From: Anadara kagoshimensis
Taxonomy: Eukaryota > Mollusca > Bivalvia > Arcoida > Arcidae
Assembly (NCBI GenBank): GCA_021292105.1
Contig: CM037864.1
Location: 11,207,898-11,271,897, forward strand
Length of the DNA stretch: 64,000 nt
Direction: 5' to 3'
Every line of letters begins with the position of its first letter. Position 1 is the first letter of the stretch. This document shows, in pieces, positions 10,004 to 49,840 of the stretch. Under the pieces are notes generated by a model that was not told the DNA's origin, did no database searches, and worked only from the letters and a program-made list of their open reading frames with translations. The translations under genes and the position numbers were made by a program.

Positions 10004-13000
10004 TTAATACGGCAAAACCTTTCCTTGGTAATCATACATTAGACCAGATGATTCAGAATTCAATTTGGCAAATGTCTGTAGACATCCTTCTATACTCTTA
10101 GAGGCGGGTATATCCGCGTGAGCTCCGCCCATATCTGTCTGTACCCACCCCGGATGTATACTTGTTACTAGGATACCATCGTTACGTAGATCCACACTTA
10201 GGCTCTTGGTTACCATGTTTAAAGCTGCCTTTAAAATGAAAGAGATAAAATAAGAGTTAAATAGCATGTACTTGAAATAGCCTAAAATGTCCTAAACACG
10301 AGGTCATATGGGCCCGTATCTTCAAACTGGAAATTAATTTGCATTCAAATTACAGATAGCCATGCATAACGCTATTTTGAATCTACATGAACTAATGATT
10401 CTCAAAAAATATATTTCAATATGGCCCAGTTGTTCTAGAATAGAAACGTTTGAAATGTATTGCTAAAATATCATCTTATCCATGGGACTATATATATATT
10501 ATTAATTTCAATATTTAAACTATTACATAGATCAGCTGACATAGAAATACATGAATATGGGTTGTATTTTAGTTCGTTACGTCTACCACAGGTCAATGGT
10601 TTTCTCTGGCCACTCCGGTTTACTCCACAATCATAATGTCTCGGTATAAGTGAAATAATTTTGACTGAGCAATATTTACATTTACGGTGGGTTGTGTGTT
10701 ACTGCAGTCAAACAACATGGCAGTTACATACAACATGGCAGTTACATGTCCTTAGGGAAGATAACTCGCCTAGGTGTTTAAATCCTTATCTTTGATGTTC
10801 TATAGAAATACCTTCCGCCTGTTTTGTTATTTTCTAATACCTTACCTTCGTTACGGCAGAAAATTCGGCCTAGGTGTTGCTTCAATCCTTACCTTTGCTG
10901 TTCTGTAGGGATAAAGTCCGTTTATTTTGTTATTTTCTAATGCTTTACCGCCGTTAGGGCAGATATCAGGCTTTGATGTTCTGTACGGATACAATACGCC
11001 TGTTTTGTTACGCCGAATCGTCGTTAGGGCAGATAATTCGGCCTAGATGTTGCTTCAATCCTTACCTTTGCTGTTCTGTACGGATACAGTCCGCCTTTTT
11101 TTTTTTTTGTTATTTTCTAACGCATTACCGTCGTTAGGGCAGATAATTCGGCCTAGGTGTTTAGACCCTTACCTTTGATGTCCTGTACGGATATAGTCCG
11201 CCTGTTTTGTTACTTTCTAACGCCTTACCGCCGTTAGGGCAGATAATTCGGCCTAGGTGTTTAGACCCTTACCTTTGATGTTCTGTACGGATATAGTCCG
11301 CCTGTTTTGTTATTTTCTAACGCCTTACCGTCGTTAGGGCAGATAATTGGCCTAGGTGTTTAGACCCTTACCTTTGATGTCCTGTACGGATATAGTCCGC
11401 CTGTTTTGTTACTTTCTAACGCCTTACCGTCGTTTAGGCAGATAATTGGCCTAGGTGTTTTTCCCTTACCTTTGATATTCTGTACGGATATAGTCCGCCT
11501 GTTTTGTTATTTTCTAACGCCTTACCGTCGTTTAGGCAGATAATTGGCCTAGGTGTTTAGACCCTTACCTTTGATGTCCTGTACGGATATAGTCCGCCTG
11601 TTTTGTTATTTTCTAACGCCTTACCGTCGTTTAGGCAGATAATTCGGCCTAGATGTTTAGACCCTTACCTTTGATGTCCTGTACGGATACAGTCCGCCTG
11701 TTTTGTTATTTTCTAACGCCTTACCGTCGTTTAGGCAGATAATTGGCCTAGGTGTTTAGACCCTTACCTTTGATGTTCTGTACTGATACAGTCCGCCTGT
11801 TTTGTTATTTTCTAACGCCTTACCGTCGTTTAGGCAGATAATTGGCCTAGGTGTTTAGACCCTTACCTTTGATGTCCTGTATGGATATAGTCCGCCTGTT
11901 TTGTTATTTTCTAATGCCTTACCGTCGTTAGGGCAGATAATTCGTCCTAGGTGTTTAGACCCTTACCTTTGATGTCCTGTACGGATATAGTCCGCCTGTT
12001 TTGTTATTTTCTAACGCCTTACCGCCGTTAGGGCAGATAATTCGGCCTAGGTGTTTAGACCCTTACCTTTGATGTTCTGTACGGATATAGTCCGCCTGTT
12101 TTGTTATTTTCTAACGTCTTACCGTCGTTAGGGCAGATAATTCGGCCTAGGTGTTTAGACCTTACCTTTGATGTCCTGTACGGATATAGTCCGCCTGTTT
12201 TGTTATTTTCTAACGCTTTACCGTCGTTAGGGCAGATAATTCGGCCTAGGTGTTTAGACTCTTACCCGGATACAGTCCACCTGTTTTGTTATTTTCTAAC
12301 GCCTTACCGTCGTTATGGCAGATAATTCGGCCTAGGTGTTTAGACCCTTACCCGGATAAAGTCCGCCTGTTTTGTTATTTTCTAATGCCTTACCGTCGTT
12401 AGGGCAGATAATTCGGCCTAGGTGTTTAGACTCTTACCTTTGATGTTCTGTACGGATATAGTCCGCCTGTTTTGTTATTTTCTATAGAACCTAAAATACT
12501 CGATATATTTATAATAGCAGCCTTGTTACAGCTTAGATCTGGTGTACTGGAATTCTGTGCTGCCTTCTTTAGCAGAGGTAAAAATGTCTGGAAAAGGACA
12601 GGAACAACGTTATATTTTTGTTTTAATTGAAAGATGTTTCACTTGTGATATTTGTTAGTGATGGGAATCGGTTGGGTTTTCATAATCGATAATCGGAACT
12701 ACTCAAGTAACTAATTATCGGAAATAATCGATTATGTAATAAATACATAGAAAATAAACATTTGCTCATTGTTCAGTACAAAACATAGAATTTAAGTATT
12801 GTTTAGTAATTGCAATTGTTATAAAAATGTATATATACTAATAAATGCCACTAAATAAACTAAATAACTGTGTTTGTTGTGATTATGAGTTGATTTGTAG
12901 AGTTTGAATGATGTTTAATGTTCCAGTTAAGATAGAATATTTCACTTATATGGTGAGAATTCAACCTAAATATTGATATATCTACGTGCATGTCAGCCAT

Positions 13001-16000
13001 GTGTTGTTTTTTTCTTGTTCTCTATCCGTAGTTTCTTCCCGCCAAAAAGAGAACCGATCATCGATTATTCAACCACATAATCGAGCGCTTAAAATCAGGC
13101 CACAATCGATCGACTTTTGATTATAATCGATCATCGGCACATCACTAATATTTGTATTTGAATCTTAAGCCAAATTTGTCATGAACACTTGACAACGTCT
13201 TACCAATCTAAATAATGAATATACATGCATGTAATCATACTTCCTTTGACATTGTAGAATCTTTTATATTAAAATTTCAACTAAAAACTTGTAATGTTTC
13301 AGGCTATACTTGCTTTTAAAGAAATGTACACCTATAAAATGACAAAAACGTGAAAATCAAAGGCATGCAGGAAAAACAAACATAAAGTACAAATGATACA
13401 ACACAGCACAAGACAGTAACTATGGCAACCATATAAGATGCAGATTTATCCTCTATAAACGGAACACACTTCTATAAAGACCAATTTATGCAGACCCAAA
13501 ATCGATCAAATCTATTAAAACTTTACTTATAGCTACTAATATAGTCAACAGTCTTGTTAGCAAGGTGATACACCGACTGAAGCCGCGAGTTACCTAAGTC
13601 AAAGTGGTTCAAAGTCCCATTAGCTTAACCAAATGGTTATGAAAATACAAACATAGCACTGCCGTGCTGTTGTACGGCGTAGTTGGGAAAATTGTGTTGT
13701 GCCAAGAGAGAATATAACCGACCCCCACCTCCACCCACCGGGAAAGGGGTGGTTCGATCTATGCATAGTCCGACGGATGTTTTTTGGAAAAAGAAACAAT
13801 GTACCAAACCATGTATTGCTAAATTAAATGGTAGAAAATAATAATTTCATAAATATATGAAAAAGACAATCAGTAATTAAAATTTAATAAAGTTTTATAA
13901 AGTCGTACCCGATCGTTTTGTCATTTCGGATAGAGAGAAAGTAGTTTTGCAGACCCTACCGTCGCTATGAGGGGGTACATTCTAGCGGTTGTATGTAACT
14001 GGATCATTTGCTGTTAAATCTGGGTTTTAATAAACTGCTGATTATCACTCACAATATTCCCGTTTCATGTTTATGGTGAAGTATTTAAAATCCACATGTG
14101 GTCATTTGCACACAACATTGTACGAATGTATCTCCCTTTCACGAAAGTGAAATCTAATCAATAAACAGTTTTAAAATATGACACAATTGCCTCAACATCA
14201 AAATACGTTATCATACCCTTCAAAAAAATTAAATTACCGTAGATTTCATGAAGAATTAATCAAATTCACTCGCTATTGTTGTTTATTTCATGAAATGTTA
14301 TGATTTCACATCGTAGTTGTTGTTGTTGACATCGTAAGACGCAAACTTCTCGGACTACTTTTTATTGTAAACACGAGATCAGATGCCAAATTGCAGAAAT
14401 TATTGGATGCATCCCGTCGCAATATATTACTAGATTCCGAAATGTATTCCGAAAATTTATACCAAATGTGCATATGTAATCAAATGCATTACCCGTCTCA
14501 GAATACATATCTCACGATAAAACAGATATATTTCTTTCACGCTCATTTACCAGGCGCACTATTTCCATGCGTACGCATATCTTATAATTTCATAGCAAAG
14601 AAGCCCGATATCTTGGAAGAAAGCGATAGCAAAGTACGCGTTCACTGTCGTGAAACGCCGTACAAAAATCTTTTTAAGAGTAAAAATGGACTTAAACTGC
14701 CTTTATTTAATAACAACAATTGTGAACATTAACTTTTGGACATAAATTTTAGTAATATTGCTTAAACCGCAAAATACAAATTTTGGCTAACTAAATGGTT
14801 AAGCTAATGGGGCTTTGAACAACCCGGTTCTCGGACACAAGCTTCAGAGCAGGTGGTCGTCATATAAAAGAGATCCAATTACAATATGCCACGTGGTACC
14901 TCTTGACATTTGAGTGAAATTGTTATTCCATTTGACATGGAATTGCATATTTTGGCCGTTATATCTCCGTGATCCGTTTCCAGGGATATTACAAGTGTTT
15001 TCACCTGGATAAGAAGTATTGGGGACACCACATTTACGTCGAACGATTCCAATAAATTTTCCCGCGAATTATTTCCAATGTATTGCTTCTTGAAGGTAAT
15101 GGCCGCATTGTTTATAAGAACATTTAGTCCGTTCTCTGATAAATCCGACTTAGCCTCGTCATAAACCCTGTCTGCGTCGCTTGTACTTTTTACATCTGAA
15201 ATATGTGAAATTCATCACACGTCACAAAAAGCCACAATCGGTAAAAAGTTCGGTCTTTTCCGCCGTACTCTGGAATACCCAAACATTGTGACGTAAAAGA
15301 CGTGGCAATATTCTAATTGCGAAAAGTGCATATATATTATGTGACAAAAATCTAACCAAAAGGTCGCTGTTTTATGTGTTCCGTTTTGGTTAAAATTTTG
15401 TCATATAATACACCTCGAGGTACCTAATCGGAACATCGTTCGTCCTTGTCCGTCGTAGCTTGTAAAAACGAAAAAGACCGAGCTATGTTTACCATCTGGA
15501 ACCATTGCCTATTCAGACACTATAATGGAAAGTAACTAGCCATCTAAAGCAGGCATATGCAATACATAAAGGGTAATAAAGAGACGCAATACAATCTACC
15601 TTTGCTATACTGAAAGGGGCTGCTACATTAATTCTGAAATTCTCCATCAACATATCGCCATCTGATTGTTGTAGATCTTTCCGTATGTGAATTCCAGCAT
15701 TGTTTAATAAAATATTTAAACCTTGAGATTGTAAAAGTCCCTCAACCTCGTTCCTAAAGCCATCTAAAGCTGCGATATCACCAACATCTACAATATCAAG
15801 GGGTGTTTCAAATAACTGCTCGAAGCAACTTAAGAAACCGACATTTGCTAGGGAACACCATACCTTTGACAGTTACACAAGAGAACTTTTTTCAATTAGT
15901 ATGCTCCGCTAACGAAGGTATGTGCTGTTACTGGTAACTTCGGTTTCCTTCACCATCCCTGAAAAGATCGCCTCTATATGGGTAAAGAATCTTGACATGG

Positions 16001-26100: not shown

Positions 26101-29100
26101 AGGATCATTTCAAAGCGAGGCTTTACTTGAGCTTTTGTTGAGGCAATATAACAGGGTCATCAAACCAGATGGTCAAGTGAATGTCCACCACAGCATAACT
26201 CTAACAAGCATAATCAATTACGTGAGTAAAATATCACATCTAGGCCGAAATATCTGCCTTACACGATGGTCGTTTTTCTTGCTTGCTTGTGTTTGGGGAC
26301 ACTTGAGCTTTTGTTGAGTAATTATAAGGACATCAAACCAGATGGTCAAGTGAATGTCCACCACAGCATCACTCTAACAAACATAATCAACTACGTAAGT
26401 AAAATATCACATCTAGGCCGAAATATCTGCCTTACACGATGGTCGTTTTTCTTGCTTGCTTGCGTTTGGTGACATTTGTGCTTTAAAATTAACACTGGTA
26501 TAATATGTAATACATTCGTAGCAAATAAAATATAGCATCGCTATGGCGTTGGAATTTTATACATGTATCTCTTTAAAACCATAAAAATGATGTCATCGAA
26601 AGTCATTCCTTTTGTGCAAAAATATCATGAAAGATCATCTAACCAGTCCAAATGCTTGAAACAAAGGAGAATAGAATTAAAAGCATATAAAGTTAAAACG
26701 TTCAGGTGTATCGATTGGCCTTAATATTCAAATTATATTGTAATTTAATAGTTGGATGAACTCTTTCACTGACAATTACGGTTTTGACATTTCAAGTAAT
26801 AGAGTACCAATTATTCTAAATTGTAAATAATTGCTAATGCACTTTTACATGTTTGTATATTAGGTACACATGGGTTCAGAAAAAAACGAACGAGTTTCTC
26901 TAGTTTATAATATTTAATAAATCTAATATATGTACACGAGACTGATTTGCAAGCATCTAATATAAACTTTCTAGGGGTCTCGCTATAGACAAGTGTTAGA
27001 AAGTTTGCCAGTTCCCTTGTCCAGGGACCGTGGTTCTCCCACTACCGTTTCCATCACCATGCCAGTACTAACCGTCTCGATATAAATTAAAGAATCTTGA
27101 CTGGGGCATAAAATACCGTTAATCCACTACAATCAGTTTTCTTGTATCTGGCATCTCCGCAATAATGTTTTCTTGAGCAATACAATACGAAGCAATTACA
27201 TATTATACCAGTCTTAATTTTACAGCACTAGACGACCGTTTTGGAATACAATTCCTCATTAGTAGTGCTTGAACCAAAATTATGAAGCGAAAACTTTTTT
27301 CCAAGATGTTGAAAGGAAACCCAAAGGACCAAAATACAATTCAAAGCAATTAATTTTATAAGGACTAAAATGGTTCATATCAATTTAAGCTTTTGAAATC
27401 TATGGGCGTTATTACAATATTATTGATAAGTATGATGTTTCTCTATCCAAAATTGTCATGTTGTTCATGTTCTTTTACCTCTCACTTGGCGAACGTAGCT
27501 AAGCTAAAAAGGAGGTGCTTATACCCTTCCGGAGCACCTGGCCTCATATTCCTGATGGAAGCTCATTCAAAGAATCACAATCCCGAAAGCAAGGTAAGTA
27601 ATTTGCAAACTGGCAAATTCAGTTTGAATTTCCAACAGAGAAATGAATAATAATATTTATCTATTTATTTACTTTTTATTTATTTATTTATTATTTCAGG
27701 AGAATTATGTTTTTACAGCTAATGTTTGGATTCAACAAGCCTGGCGAGATACCAGATTGCAATGGAATCCAACTGAATTCGGCAATATCACACGATTGAA
27801 CATTCCACACACGTTGCTATGGAAACCAGATATTGTTTTGTACAACAAGTAAGTTCATGTGCACAAACAAACGCATTGTGTTCGGCTGTAAAACATTAAT
27901 TTTTTTGACACTGGACATCAATCGGGTTTTTCACGTTCGTTTCGTTTTTAAATATTTAAATTTGCGAGTACATAGATTTCTCGAATATTTTAGTTTGATA
28001 CATACTAATCCATGAAGCAAAGTAAAAATTTTGGAACTAACAAGTCAGGTTAGACACGTGAACTTCCACCAGGGAATTTAGCCCGGGTGCTCCGGAAGGG
28101 TAAGCATCTCCTGTATAGCCAGCTACAACCGCCACGTGTGTAATCAAGAACATGGAACTATGGGACGTCAAATATATCCAGGGCAATCCTGGACACAGAG
28201 ACATCAAACTTATCAACAATACTTTGATGACGGCCATAAAACTTTTAGTGTGAGCTTGCAATATCTCTGAGTCAACAATTTGTTTGCAAGCAGTCTGCTT
28301 CGTTGTACAAAGTCTCCGTAATGGGAATATAATTCACTAGCATTTTCACTGACCCGGAATTCTAGTTACGAAAATTTTAAGAATATCATAAAATGTCAAA
28401 TTTCGCGAAAATAAAGTCACGCGAAAATTCCTCGAGTTACCGTAACTTTTCTTTTTATTTTCTTTTTCTGGATGCCACATAAAAATTCGAATAAGGCTAA
28501 TGCCTCTAATCAATGTGCACTGGTCTTTAGAGAACACACCAATAGAACTCAATAACATAATATGAACCTTATTTATATTACAAAAATGGGCGTGTTTATG
28601 TGTTTTTTTTATGGAAATAAAGAGTATTTTACTGGCACGGAGTGATTCAATCAGTAGGGTCTGAGGGGTTTTGAGATCCGTAAGTGCGCATGAAAACACT
28701 CGGTCATTAATGTCTTATTTTTAATATACATACATACATATCCTCTCTGGGTCTTCAAGGACTCGTGAGGCCGTTGAGCATTCTACGCCACCCCTGTCTG
28801 TCACTTGCTGCTGCTTCTGCTCTTTGCCATGTGTTCCATCCATTCTCAATTCTTTCTTTTTCAACTGTTCTTCTCCATGTGTTCTTTGGTCTTCCAGCTT
28901 TTCTTTTACCTTCAGGCGTCCAGGTTAGTGCTATCTTGGTGTTACTGTTAGTTTCTCTACGCAGGATGTGACCTACATGTATATATCTCCATCTTCGCAC
29001 TTTGATCGTATGGGACAGTGGTGTGGTCTTGGTGCGAGTGTAAAGATCGGTGTTTGAGATCTTCTCAGGCCAATGTATTTTCACTATCCTATGTAGTCAT

Positions 29101-29587
29101 TTGCAGTGGAAGGTGCCTAACCGCTCTTCGTCTTTTCTTGTTGTTGTTCTCCATATACAGAAATTACGTTGGCGTAAAATATTCGTAAGTTTGTTTTGGC
29201 GCTGTACTTATTGTTTTCCATTTTAGCGCTGGAGCAGACGATGGGCTGATTTACAAAGATTTAAATGTTATTCTCAACTCCAATGGCCAAGTGAGTTACA
29301 TCACGCCAATGCGTCTGGTATCGCAATGTACAGAGCAGGGGACCGGTTTTCTGGACCGGAAGGCTGTTTGTAAATGGAAATTCGGATCCTGGACCTTCAG
29401 TGGTCTCGATATGGACATTGACAACGGGACATATTTTAACATGGATGAATATTCAACAAATCCGAGGTTTGAAGTCCTCACGAAGGAGGCTGTGAAAAAT
29501 GTACACCATTACGAATGTTGTCCAGAACCGTACACTGACGTCACGTATACGCTGGAATTTAGGCGTACTTTTGATGATGACGACTAA
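23113..29587 (+). CDS. acetylcholine-binding-protein-like secreted protein 1, four exons
   Basis: Exons are 23113-23176, 26103-26221, 27700-27848 and 29227-29587. All junctions are GT-AG, with phases 1, 0 and 2. They join to 230 aa. Exon 1 is a signal peptide (MFLTNVKLIGTTLIFCIFYV). Cys-loop receptor ligand-binding signatures follow in order: loop D VWIQQAWRD (W76), loop A LLWKPDIVLYN (Y109), a Cys-loop C145-C159 (13 residues between), loop B WKFGSWTF (W166), and loop C HYECCPEPY (Y206, C208-C209, Y213). The chain stops at RRTFDDDD, where receptors enter TM1, so it is the soluble AChBP architecture rather than a channel subunit. N-glycosylation motifs NIT and NGT are present. A poly(A) signal aataaa lies at 29596. 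Molluscan AChBPs are secreted pentamers that bind acetylcholine. A pearl-oyster relative was reported as an amorphous-calcium-carbonate-binding protein. Intron 1 contains a large inverted repeat element. Exon 2 has a broken partial duplicate just downstream. Confidence 0.88.
23612..25037 (-). mobile_element. TIR element with 145-bp internal repeats, copy 2 (inverted)
   Basis: The ends are aacaagaggcccatgggcc plus taacgctcacctg at the left, and cagctcaggtgagctaa at the right, inverse to copy 1 at 18546-19665. About six tandem units of 144-145 bp carry ctgtgaccttgacctttg (for example at 23921, 24065, 24210, 24355 and 24500). It lies in intron 1 of AChBP-like gene 1. The following 25040-26080 is AT-rich with no exon seen. 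Confidence 0.85.
26125..26485 (+). repeat. ~173-bp tandem partial duplication of AChBP exon 2 plus its donor
   Basis: The unit runs from acttgagcttttgttgag in exon 2 through the donor (gtgagt or gtaagt), then cacatctaggccgaaatatc and tgccttacacgatggtcg, to gcttgcttg. Two near-complete units and the start of a third are present. The intronic part matches the end of the fold-back family seen at 30762 and 35860. Confidence 0.9.
26301..26394 (+). pseudogene. 5'-truncated second copy of AChBP exon 2
   Basis: It encodes LELLLSNYKDIKPDG, then QVNVHHSITLTNIINY, and ends at a good donor (tac/gtaagt). No acceptor in the right phase precedes it: the only nearby AG at the copy start would lead into a stop. 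It is one codon shorter than the functional exon 2. Splicing into it is unlikely, so I treat it as an exon relic. Confidence 0.75.
27398..27575 (-). mobile_element. dispersed family 4 (tagctagctacacc type), minus orientation
   Basis: Shared words on the minus strand include ggtgctccggaagggtataa and gcacctcc. Other copies or fragments lie at 28037-28245 (+), 32285-32468 (-), 40237-40330 (+), 42485-42650 (+), 51150-51270 (+), 55745-55925 (+) and 59530-59770 (+). It creates an 85-aa open frame in intron 2 that is not a gene. Confidence 0.75.
28037..28245 (+). mobile_element. dispersed family 4, plus orientation
   Basis: The copy has gtgaacttccaccaggga, gggtgctccggaagggtaag and ggaacatgga...actatggga in the family order, inside intron 3 of AChBP-like gene 1. 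Confidence 0.75.
28721..29084 (-). mobile_element. LINE 3'-end fragment (RTE-like), 5'-truncated
   Basis: The minus-strand frame encodes GHILRRETN, TWTPEGKRKAGRPKNTWRRT and a Trp/Arg-rich end (WRRMLNGL). This is the characteristic C-terminal tail of LINE reverse-transcriptase polyproteins. A tacatacatacat run follows the 3' end. Only the last ~100 codons remain. A second fragment of similar type is at 55965-56245. Confidence 0.85.
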
Positions 29588-29601
29588 ATAATTAAAATAA
29601 A

Positions 29602-30761: not shown

Positions 30762-30862
30762 ATAGGCCGAAATATCTACCTTAATCGATGGCAAGTTATT
30801 TTTATATTGACTGTAGCAATATAAAAAATAACTTACCATCGTTAAGGCAGATAGGTCGGCCT
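30762..30862. mobile_element. fold-back element, taggccgaa family, copy 1
   Basis: The left arm taggccgaaatatctacctt and aatcgatggcaagttattt is mirrored by the right arm ending in aaggcagataggtcggccta. The spacer is short. The same terminal sequence occurs at 35860-35976, in the AChBP exon 2 duplication (26242, 26415) and in every unit of the dehydrogenase array. Confidence 0.85.
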
Positions 30863-30944
30863 AGGGATCCATCGCCCGTTTAAAAGAAATAGAATGAAAT
30901 CATTTAAATTGAACCCTCCAGACAAACTAATTATAACGCAGCAC

Positions 30945-31546: not shown

Positions 31547-34500
31547 ATGGAATATCTGAAAATTGTTTGCTTCTGTATGTTGTTCAGTGCTGTGGCAAAT
31601 GGTAAGTGTAATTTGTTTATCTTATTTGATTTCAGCAAATTGCTTACAAATAAATTGATTCATAGTTATTGCAAGCCTAGGCTTATCAAGGACCTCAAAA
31701 ATGTTTTATGGGCAGGGGGGTAACTGCCTTAAGGCCAAAAGGCACGTGCCTATACACTATTTTAACAGAGATATTAATGTATTAAAAATTATTCAAATAA
31801 ATTGAGTTTCTAGTGCGTGTAGGACAATGTTCAGTGAGTGTTTTAGCGTGTGAAGCCTATCGCGCAAGGACATCGGGTTTTTAAAGATCTCATCCAAAGG
31901 ATCCGTGACTTTCATTTCTAATTGCTGATAACTACCACTTTTCGAGTCTTTGGTCTGCCTCGACGGTATTTGAACCCCGACCTTCCATTTACGAAGCGAG
32001 CACTAAATCAATTGAGCTATCATGGACTATGACGAGACACAAAAACACATCCAGCTATAAAAATCTCATTGACCGCAATCTACTGAAAGCAAAATTTCTT
32101 TCAAATAACGATTTCAGTATAAAGTTTTTACAGCATACAATGTGTAATGTAGACTCCGAAATGCGTGTTTTTCGATTAAATATTTCAAAATTAACGAAGA
32201 AGGGCACCCAGAACCCCCTCAAATCTCCTCCCACACGCACCGTCCTCCATCGGCGCATTGCCCATCATTCGTCTGTGCCTACATTATACCTTTGCTGTCA
32301 CAACATTGTTGATAAGTTTGATGTCTCTGTATTCAAGTTTGTCCTGGATATAATTAACGTCCCATAGTTCCCTCATTCTCAATGTTGATTGTATCCAGCT
32401 AACAGGAGGTACTTACACTTTGAGAGCACCTGGCCTTGCTTCCTTGGTGCAAGTTCATATGTGTAACATACAGTCCAACCTGTCTTAAAGGCCACCTCTG
32501 TATAAGGGCCACCTGCTTATAAAGGCCAGTAGAATTGTATCCCAATTGTTCTTTATTCGTAATTTTTGAACTTGTATATAAAGGCCACTTTTACTGGTTC
32601 CCTTGGGTGGACTTTATAGACAAGTTTGACTGTATTTTCAAAGTTTTACTTTGCTTTTGGGATTGTAATTAGAACATGGACTGGTATGTTTGTGTTTTCT
32701 TTATTTATTTATTTACTTATTTATTTATTTATTTATTTTATAATTTACTGATTTATTTTCTAATTTTTGTTTGTTTGTTCGTTTGCTTGATTGTTACCCC
32801 CTGTCTTGCGAAAAAAAGGGGATATAAAATTCAAACATCCGTCCGTTAGTACACTTCTTATCCGGACTTATTCTCCAAAACTATGAAGCACTATTTTACG
32901 AAACTTGGTGCGAAACGATATATGCGCAAATCGTTTGCTTATTTTCCTAGGACCTGTGGCCTTCATTTAACATAAGTGTCTGTCACAAAAACGTACCTCC
33001 TGGGCGGGCGGGGGGTCACTGGGGTCGCTTGTTCTTCTTGGTCACATAGGCTTTTGGCAAGCACATAAACTACAAATTGCAATATATCCTCTTACGGTTA
33101 CTGTATTGTCCAGAATGTCGTATATCGTTTGATGAATCCTGAATTTGCTCTACACGACTTTGACTTGAAGTTTTTTCGTCTGCGATTTATCTGATAAAAA
33201 TAGGATTTCTCGTAGTTACTCGTATGTACGCTTACTCACTCCTGTCAAAAATCGGCTGAGTCGTACCAAAATCATACACTTAGACGAAAAAATCGTATGT
33301 AAAAATCATGTAGTGTTAATCCAGCATAACATAATACAGTTTGATGGGGGTAAAAAGTTAATAAAATAAAGTTTTCCTGAATCGTTGAGGCCCTATAGGT
33401 ATCGTATATTACCTCGGAATTCCTAATCTGACAGGCCCATGTTTTAAAACGCCATCTTGGATGTGACGTCATTGATTAGCAGGATGTAAAAGCTGAAAAG
33501 GAAGAGTATAAATTTTAGTTTTGTTTTTTCTAATTATTATAGGAATTTCGGAGAGTAGACTATTGGATACTTTATTGAGAAATTATGACAAAGTCGTCAA
33601 ACCAGACGGTATCGTACATGTTAGCCACAGTCTGACCCTGACAAATATTTTAAATTATGTAAGTAATAGTGGTATGTACAATGTAATTTTAATTATCGTG
33701 GGTTATTTTTCCCGCCTTTCCAAGAAAGATCGGATTTGAATACGAACTTTAGACCTTCCGCCCAACCATTCTTTCGTCTATCCTTCCTTCCATCTTTCCA
33801 GGCACTTTTGTAACACATTTGCACAACTTAGCTTGGTCTTTTTCTAATTTTTGTTCAGACTGTTTTTGAAAATATTTCGACAAGTGTTTTTTTTTAATTG
33901 TGGCATCTTGTTAGCCTTTGCATTTTTGACTTTTATGTTTGGGCGGTAAACCTTTTCTATTCTTGAATATACGGCTCGATATAAGTGAAATATTCTTGAC
34001 TGGGACGTTTAAAACCATTACTCAACCCAACTCTATTCTTGATTGAAATTTTGGACATCTGAATCGTGTCTTAATCTTAGCCTTGTACATTCAATGATGG
34101 GACACCTAACCTTATTATTAGTCTTGACCAATAGTCGTTTTGTTCCGAGACTCTTAATTTTAAGACCACTGTGGTAGCTCAGTTGGTAGAGTGCTCGCTC
34201 CACAACTGGAAGGTCGTGGGTTCGATCACTGACCGGCTCTGATCCAAGACTTGAAAGTGAGTAGTGACTGTTCTTTCGCCAAGCACTCGGCATCATGAAA
34301 TGAAAGTCACGGTGCTTTTGGATCGGAACTTAAAATAAACGAGGTCCCGTGTCACGGTAGGTATGGCACGATAAAGAACCCTGCTGTATAATGCTATTAG
34401 CACAACGTAGAGGCAAAATTTCTGCATCTTCGACTATAGCTGACGACGTCTCGATATAAGTGAATATTCTTGACTTGGACGTTAAACACCAAAACTCAAC

Positions 34501-36380
34501 TCAACTCTTACTTTTAAGAAGCTCTACTTTAAACATTTTCGATATCAAGCTGTTCCATTTTATTTGGCAGAGAACATATCACTCTCTCAATGTAGTATGC
34601 TTTAATTTAAGAAGTGATCTTTACCGATGCCCCGTGTCTAAGTGGGCGTGGCACGTTAAAGAATCCTCTTGGCACATGCAAAAAGGGAATAAAAGGTAAA
34701 TTATTCTACCTCTTTATCCGTAGCTGGTAATGTCTCGATACAAGTGAAATGTCCTTGACTTGGACGTAAAACCCCTCCAATTAATTAATCTAATTAAACA
34801 CAAATTCAAGGATTTTTGCATATTTTTTATTTTAGGACAAAAACATTATAACAGCTAATGCGTGGGTTTTTCAAAGTTGGGTTGATAGTAGATTGAGCTG
34901 GAATGGCACAGGGGGACCAGAAAGATTGACCGTTCCAGCAAGGTTGCTATGGAAACCAGATATTCTCTTGTATAACAAGTAATTATTAATCAGTATATAA
35001 TGAGTTATTTTCTACTTCAGGTCATTTTTGTACCAGGTGGAGTCCAACAAAAATATTTTTAAAAATGATATAATGGCTTTGTTCGACATTTGTTTAACAT
35101 AATTAAACGTCATGTACTTCTTTTTATGAACCAGTAAAACAATGATTTTGAAACTTGACAGGGATTTCCCAAGATCTTAACCCTTTAGGGGTCCAAAATT
35201 ATGTTTAAGGACTTCTTGCCTTTATTTTTAGCAGGTCCAACATAAAGTGAAAGTCCAATATCAATATTTAAAGTTCCATGCCAAATTATGTTATCATTTA
35301 TAAAAATGTTGTATAGACTTTCACAATTAAAATATCAAAGACCATAGTGTAAAATCAATATATCCCGGACCAGGGGACTTTTGAAACCCTGGCCTTCCAA
35401 GTCAGAGAAACTTCTTTATATTGCCCTTTTTAGTAAATCCTTTGAACAACTTTTTGCCCTAAACCAAGAGGTCTAGAAAATTGAAACTGTGTTTATAATA
35501 TCAGGACAAGAAAATGTTCCCTTGACTTGACAAGGGTGTCCCTTCGGAGAACCTACTTCACTTCGACCTTGACCTTTATGTTAAGTAGTGACATTGAAAC
35601 AAACGACATTTATAATAGCAGGAGAGAAAGTTCTTCCTTATTGAATCTTTGGGGTTAAAACTAAGCAGGGGTGTACCAGGGCCGAAACCCTTTCGGAGAA
35701 GCTTCTTCACCTTGACCTTCATATATAAAGTAGTGCCACTTGACCTTTTTTGACCTGGAAGTGTTTTAATGAGACCTAAACACAATAGAACAGTTTCAGT
35801 CGAGGCTGTGGCAAATACTCTTTATTTAAAGGTAGAATGTCATTGTTTGAATAGGCTAATACAAAACATAAGGCCGAATTATCTGCTTTAACAATGACAT
35901 TCTATTTCTTTATACGATGGTGGCAATATAGTAAAAATAACATGCCATCGTTAAGGCAGATAATTCGGCCTAAAAACGAGCAAAACTTGTTATATACAAG
36001 ATTTCTAAATGTAAATTTTTCTTTTATTTTTAAGCGTTGGACCTGACTCCGGAATGGTTTACGATGATTTGAATGTCATGATACGTTCAGATGGTTCGGT
36101 GACGTATGTACCAGTGTTGCGTCTGACGTCACAATGTGTAGAGAATGGATTTGTGTCCAAGTCTATATCCTGTCAGTGGAAGTTCGGGTCATGGTCCTAC
36201 TCTGGTTTGGACATAGATTTTAACGCTGATTCAGAATTAACACTGCATGATTATGTACCTAACGAAAATTTCGATATCTTGGAAACTAAGGTGAACAAAA
36301 CTTCGGCATATTACGCGTGCTGTCCTGAACCATACCCGGCGATTACTTATTTGATACGATTACGGAAATCGTTTTTATAA
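31547..36380 (+). CDS. acetylcholine-binding-protein-like secreted protein 2, four exons
   Basis: Exons are 31547-31601, 33543-33658, 34836-34978 and 36035-36380, with the same intron phases as gene 1. They join to 219 aa. An in-frame ATG also lies at 31523, but 31547 has the stronger context (gccaaaatgg) and gives a compact signal peptide (MEYLKIVCFCMLFSAVANG). Loop D is AWVFQSWVD (W72) and loop A LLWKPDILLYN (Y103). The Cys-loop is C139-C151, with only 11 residues between. Loop B is WKFGSWSY (W158), and loop C is YYACCPEPY (Y198, C200-C201, Y205). The protein ends at RLRKSFL, with no transmembrane segment. N-glycosylation motifs NGT and NKT are present, and a poly(A) signal aataaa lies at 36493. 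The gene arose by tandem duplication with gene 1, 2 kb apart on the same strand. The shared structure argues for a secreted ligand-binding role. Ligand and tissue are unknown. Confidence 0.88.
31845..32028 (-). mobile_element. SINE family 1, minus orientation, diverged
   Basis: It has tatttgaaccccgacctt and tacgaagcgagcactaaat in the head and an old body to the left. It lies in intron 1 of AChBP-like gene 2. Confidence 0.7.
32285..32468 (-). mobile_element. dispersed family 4, minus orientation
   Basis: It has gttgataagtttgatgtctc, the inverse of gtttagctagctacac (decayed) and actttgagagcacctggcc in family order. The copy abuts the MITE at 32469. Confidence 0.65.
32469..32634 (+). mobile_element. 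MITE family tacagtccaacctg, copy 2
   Basis: The left end is tacagtccaacctgtcttaa. The right end is tatagacaagtttgactgta. Internal ggccacctctgtataagg and ggttcccttgggtgg are present. It is in intron 1 of AChBP-like gene 2. Confidence 0.9.
34165..34506 (+). mobile_element. SINE family 1, plus orientation, nearly full length
   Basis: It starts with gtggtagctcagttggtag (A box) and ggtcgtgggttcgatcact (B box). The body has agcactcggcatcatgaaat and cccgtgtcacggtaggta. The tail is tctcgatataagtgaatatt and aaactcaactc. A diverged body fragment of the same family follows at 34620-34795. Both are in intron 2 of AChBP-like gene 2. Confidence 0.92.
35860..35976. mobile_element. fold-back element, taggccgaa family, copy 2
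   Basis: The left arm has aaggccgaattatctgcttt and aacaatgacattct. The right arm has tgccatcgttaaggcagata and attcggcctaa. It lies in intron 3 of AChBP-like gene 2, 60 bp before the exon 4 acceptor. The rest of intron 3 holds no recognised element. Confidence 0.85.
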
Positions 36381-48829: not shown

Positions 48830-49840
48830 GATAAGATAAATGTGCAAAAACTGGGATTCAGGTAAGTCTTTGTGGAGAAATGGAATTCAGTTTATTCTTC
48901 AAGTTAAGATGAATGTGGAAAAACTTGAATTCAATTCATTCTTTAAAGTAAGCTGAATGTGGAATAACTGGTTTAAGGTAAGCTGAATGTGGAAAAAGTG
49001 GGATTCAGTTCATTCGTTAAGGTAAGCTGAATGTGGAAAAAGTGGGATTCAGTTCATTCGTAAAGGTAAGCTGAATGTGGAAAAAGTGGGATTCAGTTCA
49101 TTCGTAAAGGTAAGCTGAATGTGGAAAAGGTGGGATTCAGTTCATTCGTAAAGGTAAGCTGAATGTGGAAAAAGTGGGATTCAGTTCATTCGTTAAGGTA
49201 ATCTGAATGTGGAAAAAAATGGGATTCAGTTCATTCGTTAAGGTAAGCTGAATGTGGAAAAAATGGGATTCAGTTCATTCGTTAAGGTAATCTGAATGTG
49301 AAAAAAATGGGATTCAGTTCATTCGTTAAGGTAAGCTTAATGTGGAAAAAGTGGGATTCAGTTCATTCGTTAAGGTAAGCTTAATGTGGAAAAAATGGGA
49401 TTCAGTTCATTCGTTAAGGTAAGCTGAATGTGGAAAACTGGAATTCAGTTGATTCTTTAAAGGTAAGATAAATGTGGAATAACGAATTCAGTTAAGTCTT
49501 TGAGGTAGAACGAATGTGGAAAAGTGGAATTAAATTCATTCTTTAAGATAAGCTGAATGTGGAAAAAGTGGGATTCGGTTGATTCTTCAAAGTAGGCTCA
49601 ATGCGGAGACAGTGTAATTCGTTAGGGTATGCGCAATGTGGAAACGGTGAAATTCAGTTTATTCTTTAATGTATCTCGATGTGTAAAAAACTGCAATTAA
49701 GTTGATTCTTTAAAGGTATAGTAAGATAAATGTGGAATAACGAATTCAGTTAAGTCTTTAAAGTAGAACGAATGTGGTAAAGTGGAATTAAATTCATTCT
49801 TTAAAGTCAGCTGAATGTGTAAAACTGGATTTCAATATCA
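48830..49840. repeat. 44-bp tandem array
   Basis: The unit aaggtaagctgaatgtggaa plus aaagtgggattcagttcatt plus cgtt is near-perfect from 48975 to 49430 and diverged at both ends. A larger pattern of about 250 bp (gaattcagttaagtcttt) is visible at 49470 and 49740. Confidence 0.93.

Follow-up and report, generated by a model that had tools for sequence, protein, structure and literature searches.

A sniffer-like dehydrogenase gene with a minisatellite in its fourth intron

The window, a stretch of 64,000 nucleotides from the bivalve Anadara kagoshimensis, carries on its minus strand a gene for a sniffer-like classical SDR, whose product with exon 3b matches sniffer (1SNY) at 1.5e-62 and in a Pfam scan matches adh_short (PF00106) at 1.1e-31. 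Its exons lie at 17556-17419 and 16516-16465, followed by two alternative third exons at 15787-15600 and 15195-15005, exon 4 at 12587-12438, supported by its splice sites, the 1SNY alignment and the adh_short match, and exon 5 at 10228-10001, delimited by its splice sites with the acceptor TTTTAAAG/GCAGCT (slashes within sequences mark splice borders); all these exons join in frame and have GT/AG borders. Exon 4 ends in phase 0 with the residues GGLYPYRTSK, of which YRTSK fits the YxxxK pattern, and the 1SNY alignment continues through YRTSK/AALN, which supports the identity of this exon. Its border with intron 4 reads AAAG/GTAAGAGTCTAA, so that the intron begins with GTAAGAGTCTAA; the authentic donor GTAAGA occupies 12432..12437 on the minus strand, with 12437 as the first base of the intron. 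The two versions of exon 3 (15600-15787 with NNAGI and 15005-15195 with NNAAI) have diverged from each other and are both retained in the sister copy of the region described below. As their phases match and either version joins exons 2 and 4 in frame, mutually exclusive use of the two is likely on the predicted gene structure.

Immediately behind exon 4, at 10750..12437 of the minus strand, lies a minisatellite in which exon tail, donor and TE arm recur 17 times and to which the intron part of u0 also belongs. Units were cut at the start of the exon tail, such that the real copy of the repeated 45-nt tail (12482-12438, minus strand) is u0 and the array copies are u1-u17. TRF, run on the window, reported 11019-12484 with a period of 199 and 11019-12266 with a period of 99, with further calls in the array at 12181-12438 (period 86) and 10752-10963 (period 103). 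The typical unit of about 100 bp opens with the 45-nt exon tail; the 17 nt of intron from the donor onwards come next, and an arm of 38 nt, of the form TA-GGCCGAATTATCTGCC...GGTAAGGCGTTA, completes it; the 100-bp unit u4 (12012..12111, minus strand) is an example and is identical to u12 (11218-11317). An earlier note on this DNA had described about 17 tandem units of some 100 bp adjoining exon 4, each formed of the YRTSK-encoding exon tail, in most cases a GT donor, and a fold-back arm; TRF and the unit cutting agree with this description in giving 17 array copies, 15 of which keep the GT after the exon tail. The two units nearest exon 4, u1 and u2, are 86-bp forms that lack the YRTSK codons and keep the GT (CCGG/GTAAG), and u15 is shortened to 73 bp. 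Identity among u1-u13 is 90-100%, and the most diverged units, the distal u14-u17 (10735..11117, minus strand), are 67-87% identical to other window units. The identity of u4 and u12 and this contrast between proximal and distal units point to repeated local turnover of the array. RNA folding of two units showed nothing special (z -1.36).

The fold-back family and a second gene with an arm beside a donor

The first TE arm of the array (TAGGCCGAATTATCTGCC...; 12383..12420, minus strand) begins 17 nt after the donor and contains a donor-like GGTAAGG, the G of whose GT is at 12393. It belongs to the same family as two-armed fold-back elements at 30763..30863 and 35870..35972 (strand not assigned), both of which also have sister copies. 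An 18-nt arm pattern, allowing up to 3 mismatches, gave 17 matches in the window, 11 of them inside the array, against 0.05 expected, and an nhmmer profile built from seven arms, one of them an array arm, matched 12420-12384 at 4.1e-11. Most sites of the arm are preceded by TA. The array units and the sites at 26241 and 26414 are single-armed, as are their sister counterparts, and searches recovered no second, inverted arm beside the window array (E up to 10) or beside the sister array (E up to 1e-3). A 21-letter TE pattern had no match in viral contigs.

The second such case is a 173-bp tandem duplication at 26125..26484 (plus strand), which combines the end of a receptor-LBD exon, a donor (GTGAGT and GTAAGT in the two copies) and an arm of the same family located 19 nt after the donor GT; the joined exons of this gene match the Pfam domain Neur_chan_LBD at 6e-42. 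The sister receptor gene lacks the duplication: its exon is present once, with GTAAGT, together with a single arm. The likeliest order, judging from this comparison, is that the arm came first and was followed by a duplication whose end clears the arm core by about 32 nt. The earlier proposal that the transposon arm seeded the amplification hence meets with a mixed outcome: it fits the dehydrogenase array, where the unit boundary falls in the inner part of the arm, and it gains no support from the receptor gene. For the same reason we dropped the idea that the breakpoints in the two genes were both set by a TE hairpin, a role it could have had at most in the dehydrogenase array. A neighbouring receptor paralogue with the same exon end has no arm in the intron start examined or in the profile search. 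It is striking that two genes of the same window have an arm near a donor, and we claim no enrichment.

The receptor locus shows additional features. The upstream exon copy (26222), which has the acceptor, carries GTGAGT, and the second copy (26395) carries the GTAAGT of the sister gene; by eye, read-through past the first donor meets a TGA in the second copy. Two Neur_chan_LBD genes lie in tandem on the plus strand, at 26104-29588 (assigned by Pfam) and at about 33545-36377 (assigned by tblastn). The first stops just after the domain, in which it resembles a soluble acetylcholine-binding protein.

A homologous copy of the region with its own array

A search of the genome for exact matches to GTAAG followed within 8-30 nt by the arm returned at least 20 places: the window array accounts for 9 and an array at C8:10611684-10612518 for 5, the window receptor gene and its sister contribute one apiece, and 4 lie elsewhere (C7, C9 and two on C16). 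With the pattern reversed as a control, the same search gave no match. The second array marks a homologous copy of the window about 0.6 Mb away on the same contig (C8:10590001-10670000). Eight 10-kb stretches around it cover 48,766 of the 64,000 window bases in pieces of at least 150 nt. Once pieces beginning in the array or in the TTAC repeat at 5.5 kb are excluded, the 22 of at least 1 kb have a mean identity of 91.0%, with extremes of 81 and 95. This level of divergence speaks for paralogous copies over alleles, and the pair may represent a segmental duplication or a very diverged uncollapsed haplotype.

The dehydrogenase exons are recognisable in the sister copy, with an identical exon 5 protein and an exon 4 that differs at 9 of 150 sites, causing 2 amino-acid changes. 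The sister array occupies the same intron and has 26 copies, GT following AAAG in 23 of them; by eye, its last unit continues into the arm's inner stem. Between the two arrays, distal units pair as reciprocal best matches, u16 with d24 (91%) and u17 with d25 (92%), which indicates that the array predates the duplication of the region. Because a sister array with matching distal units sits in the same intron, the array appears to be old, to be no one-off assembly error, and to change in unit number, which is 17 in one copy and 26 in the other within a single assembly. Long tandem arrays are hard to assemble, and this assembly has close duplicate pairs elsewhere, at 98-99% on C10 and on C16 (there along 1.7 kb out of 3 kb compared); nevertheless, an artefact is very improbable given a diverged array about 0.6 Mb away that differs in unit number, order and variants.

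Donor-like sites and the predicted fate of extended transcripts

Any extension of exon 4 into the intron runs into an in-frame TAA, the fourth intron codon, at 12428-12426 (minus strand), such that any extra donor, if used, would append VRV-stop after the active-site Lys; the truncating stop four codons past the exon 4 donor that the earlier note had pointed out is indeed there. Candidate donors are plentiful. Besides the exon-derived site, the TE arm bears its own donor-like GGTAAG, which supplies a second type of site per unit. We scored donors with a PWM based on human data. On this measure the sense strand of the array span has 29 donor-like sites at a score of at least 4 (28 beyond the authentic one), against about 1.8 expected from the density in the window; read from the site list, these are the authentic donor, 15 exon-derived and 13 TE-arm-derived sites. 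At a score of at least 6 there are 16 sites, including the authentic one, against 0.67 expected, and the antisense strand of the span has none at this threshold. Under the human matrix the exon-derived array donors score 7.26 (thirteen), 6.76 (one) and 5.52 (one), so that 14 of the 15 outscore the authentic donor at 6.01. The predicted U1 duplex energy is -10.0 kcal/mol for AAGGTAAGG and -9.5 kcal/mol for the authentic donor. In the sister array, 45 sites reach a score of 4, including the authentic donor, whose 9-mer is AAGGTAAGG, the same as that following the exon tail in most sister array units.

Under the rule known from vertebrates, a stop codon more than 50-55 nt before a junction elicits NMD. 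Use of the donor at 12393 would leave 32 nt from stop to junction, and the six donors listed after it would leave 74-359 nt, with the remaining donors farther on; as 74-359 nt exceeds the 50-55-nt limit, the corresponding extended forms of exon 4 are candidates for NMD. One may envisage, as the earlier note did, that decoy donors tune or silence splicing, which is possible from the arrangement of the sites. In its full form this alternative holds that the array donors compete with the authentic one, that unproductive, NMD-prone transcripts set the output of the dehydrogenase, and that unit number determines the strength of the effect. It draws on the excess of 28 extra sites, the confinement of the strong ones to the sense strand, the stop-to-junction distances, and the persistence of GT in 23 of 26 sister copies alongside 45 scoring sites. 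Against it stand the preservation tests reported below and a second minisatellite in the window, at 48973-49614, which repeats in 44-bp units the strong donor-like 9-mer AAGGTAAGC where no exon was seen; it shows that donor-like arrays arise without a known role and cautions against reading function into donor ladders. On balance we regard a regulated ladder as unlikely.

A further alternative treats the units as microexons, extending from the AG of AACAAAACAG to TCAAAG/GT, which would re-add most of the GGLYPYRTSK stretch. Most units do have an AG before and a donor after this stretch, and exon 4 ends in phase 0. However, with the AG ending at unit position 16 and the donor directly after position 45, the stretch between them measures 29 nt and is out of frame with exon 5, and by eye no polypyrimidine tract precedes the AG; the chance that the units serve as microexons is close to negligible.

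Preservation of the array units

When the array copies of both loci are pooled, 38 of 43 retain the exon-derived GT, the mean of all 99 dinucleotides being 36.4, and 57% of unit dinucleotides are kept as well as or better than it. The donor GT survives as an average dinucleotide does. The complete donor 9-mer persists in 35 of the 43 copies (mean 23.2), a value that only 9.8% of unit 9-mers match. Among u1-u13, the substitution rate within the unit is lowest in the donor columns (0.009, from 1 cell), compared with 0.027 in the exon tail and 0.035 in the TE arm, whereas in the old units u14-u17 the donor rate of 0.171 exceeds the 0.110 of the exon tail; in the window array, the donor nonamer stands at the 43rd percentile of variability. 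The 9-mer retention and the low donor rate in u1-u13 are mild hints of donor preservation. Clear selection on the donors was not found by the dinucleotide, 9-mer and substitution-rate tests, and a GT kept no better than the rest of the unit, with a nonamer of middling variability, argues against the regulated ladder.

Variants in the exon tails bear on another alternative, in which the coding exon acts as a master copy that re-seeds or exchanges with the array, so that selection on the active site indirectly preserves the array copies. By cells, 61 of 110 variants fall on third codon positions and 59 of 110 are synonymous. Counted once each, 12 of the 36 distinct variants are synonymous, where 26.6% would be expected (p 0.23), and we have set the third-position excess aside. 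Variants present in at least 3 units lean synonymous (6/11, one-sided p 0.045), but this sole low p is one of four cuts and uncorrected; those in at least 2 units (8/24, p 0.29) and singletons (4/12, p 0.40) do not. Consistent with exchange, a GAGGCC variant is common to the exon-proximal intron of the sister gene and the first two sister units, and the silent site 24 is A in u0 and 9 of its 17 own copies and G in d0 and 14 of 26. Conversely, identity within the arrays (88.8 and 88.4) is barely above that between them (87.9), and the exon tail of u0 resembles that of the sister exon (97.8) more than it does u1-u13 of its own array (96.4). We therefore hold a master copy to be distinctly unlikely. 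A combined scheme, in which the active-site exon is a protected master, exchange between exon and array lets selection keep the donors alive, and unit number sets the loss through NMD as a length-tunable brake, is a long shot.

A probable passive origin and its implications

We consider it probable that the array is a passive, donor-bearing minisatellite that leaks rare NMD-prone transcripts, and we prefer this reading over the regulated ladder. As to the first steps, we infer that one arm of a fold-back of about 100 bp came to lie 17 nt inside intron 4, and that a tandem duplication with ends in exon 4 and in the arm then generated a two-copy unit. Unequal exchange would have enlarged and shrunk the array both before and after the duplication of the region. 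The spliceosome would normally pair the exon 4 acceptor with the first donor, as in exon definition; since 14 of 15 exon-derived array donors outscore the authentic one, that the first donor prevails is not self-evident. If a later donor were used on rare occasions, the transcript would carry a lengthened exon 4 that encodes VRV-stop behind the active-site Lys, and most such forms would be candidates for nonsense-mediated decay. How the spliceosome chooses one donor among near-identical ones is an open mechanistic question, on which nearly the same 9-mer repeated behind an enzyme gene has a bearing; the two homologous loci with 17 and 26 copies offer a ready natural test of any effect of donor number.

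Comparison with known systems

The architecture is a variant of donor-bearing minisatellites adjacent to exons, with tandem units adjoining an exon of which most have a usable-looking donor (15 of 17 in the window, 23 of 26 in the sister copy). Tandem repeats linked to mobile elements in bivalves join mobile-element sequence to the repeats; unlike these, the window unit captures a coding exon end and a donor. The minisatellite of the human interferon-inducible gene 6-16 (IFI6/G1P3), reportedly treated by Turri et al. in 1995, is said to have a short unit of 12 nt; the window array differs from it in a unit of about 100 nt that includes a TE arm and 45 nt coding for the active site. The assertion of the earlier note that no case is described proved too strong for the general design: the unit of the intronic VNTR of human ABCA7 begins with a splice donor (PMC5954066). 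No case uniting all three elements, exon tail, donor and TE arm, was met in the open-licence literature searched.

Like the window array, the ABCA7 VNTR is a tandem array in an intron behind an exon with a donor-starting unit, but its unit is 25 bp, as described without an exon-coding tail or TE arm (PMC5954066). According to the same study, retention of a single unit via a cryptic intron donor is seen and leads to a frameshift, and VNTR length is linked to expression and to skipping of the following exon, exon 19, which offers the regulated ladder a parallel; single-unit retention is 2 +/- 1% and does not depend on VNTR length, which speaks against it (PMC5954066). The splicing in ABCA7 was shown by experiment (PMC5954066), and donor use in the window array is predicted from sequence. 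Tandem genomic duplication across splice sites, a subject of work on intron gain (for example PMC4974935, PMC3443670), likewise copies in tandem stretches that hold splice sites; unlike those duplications, the window array shows no new intron and enlarges an existing one.
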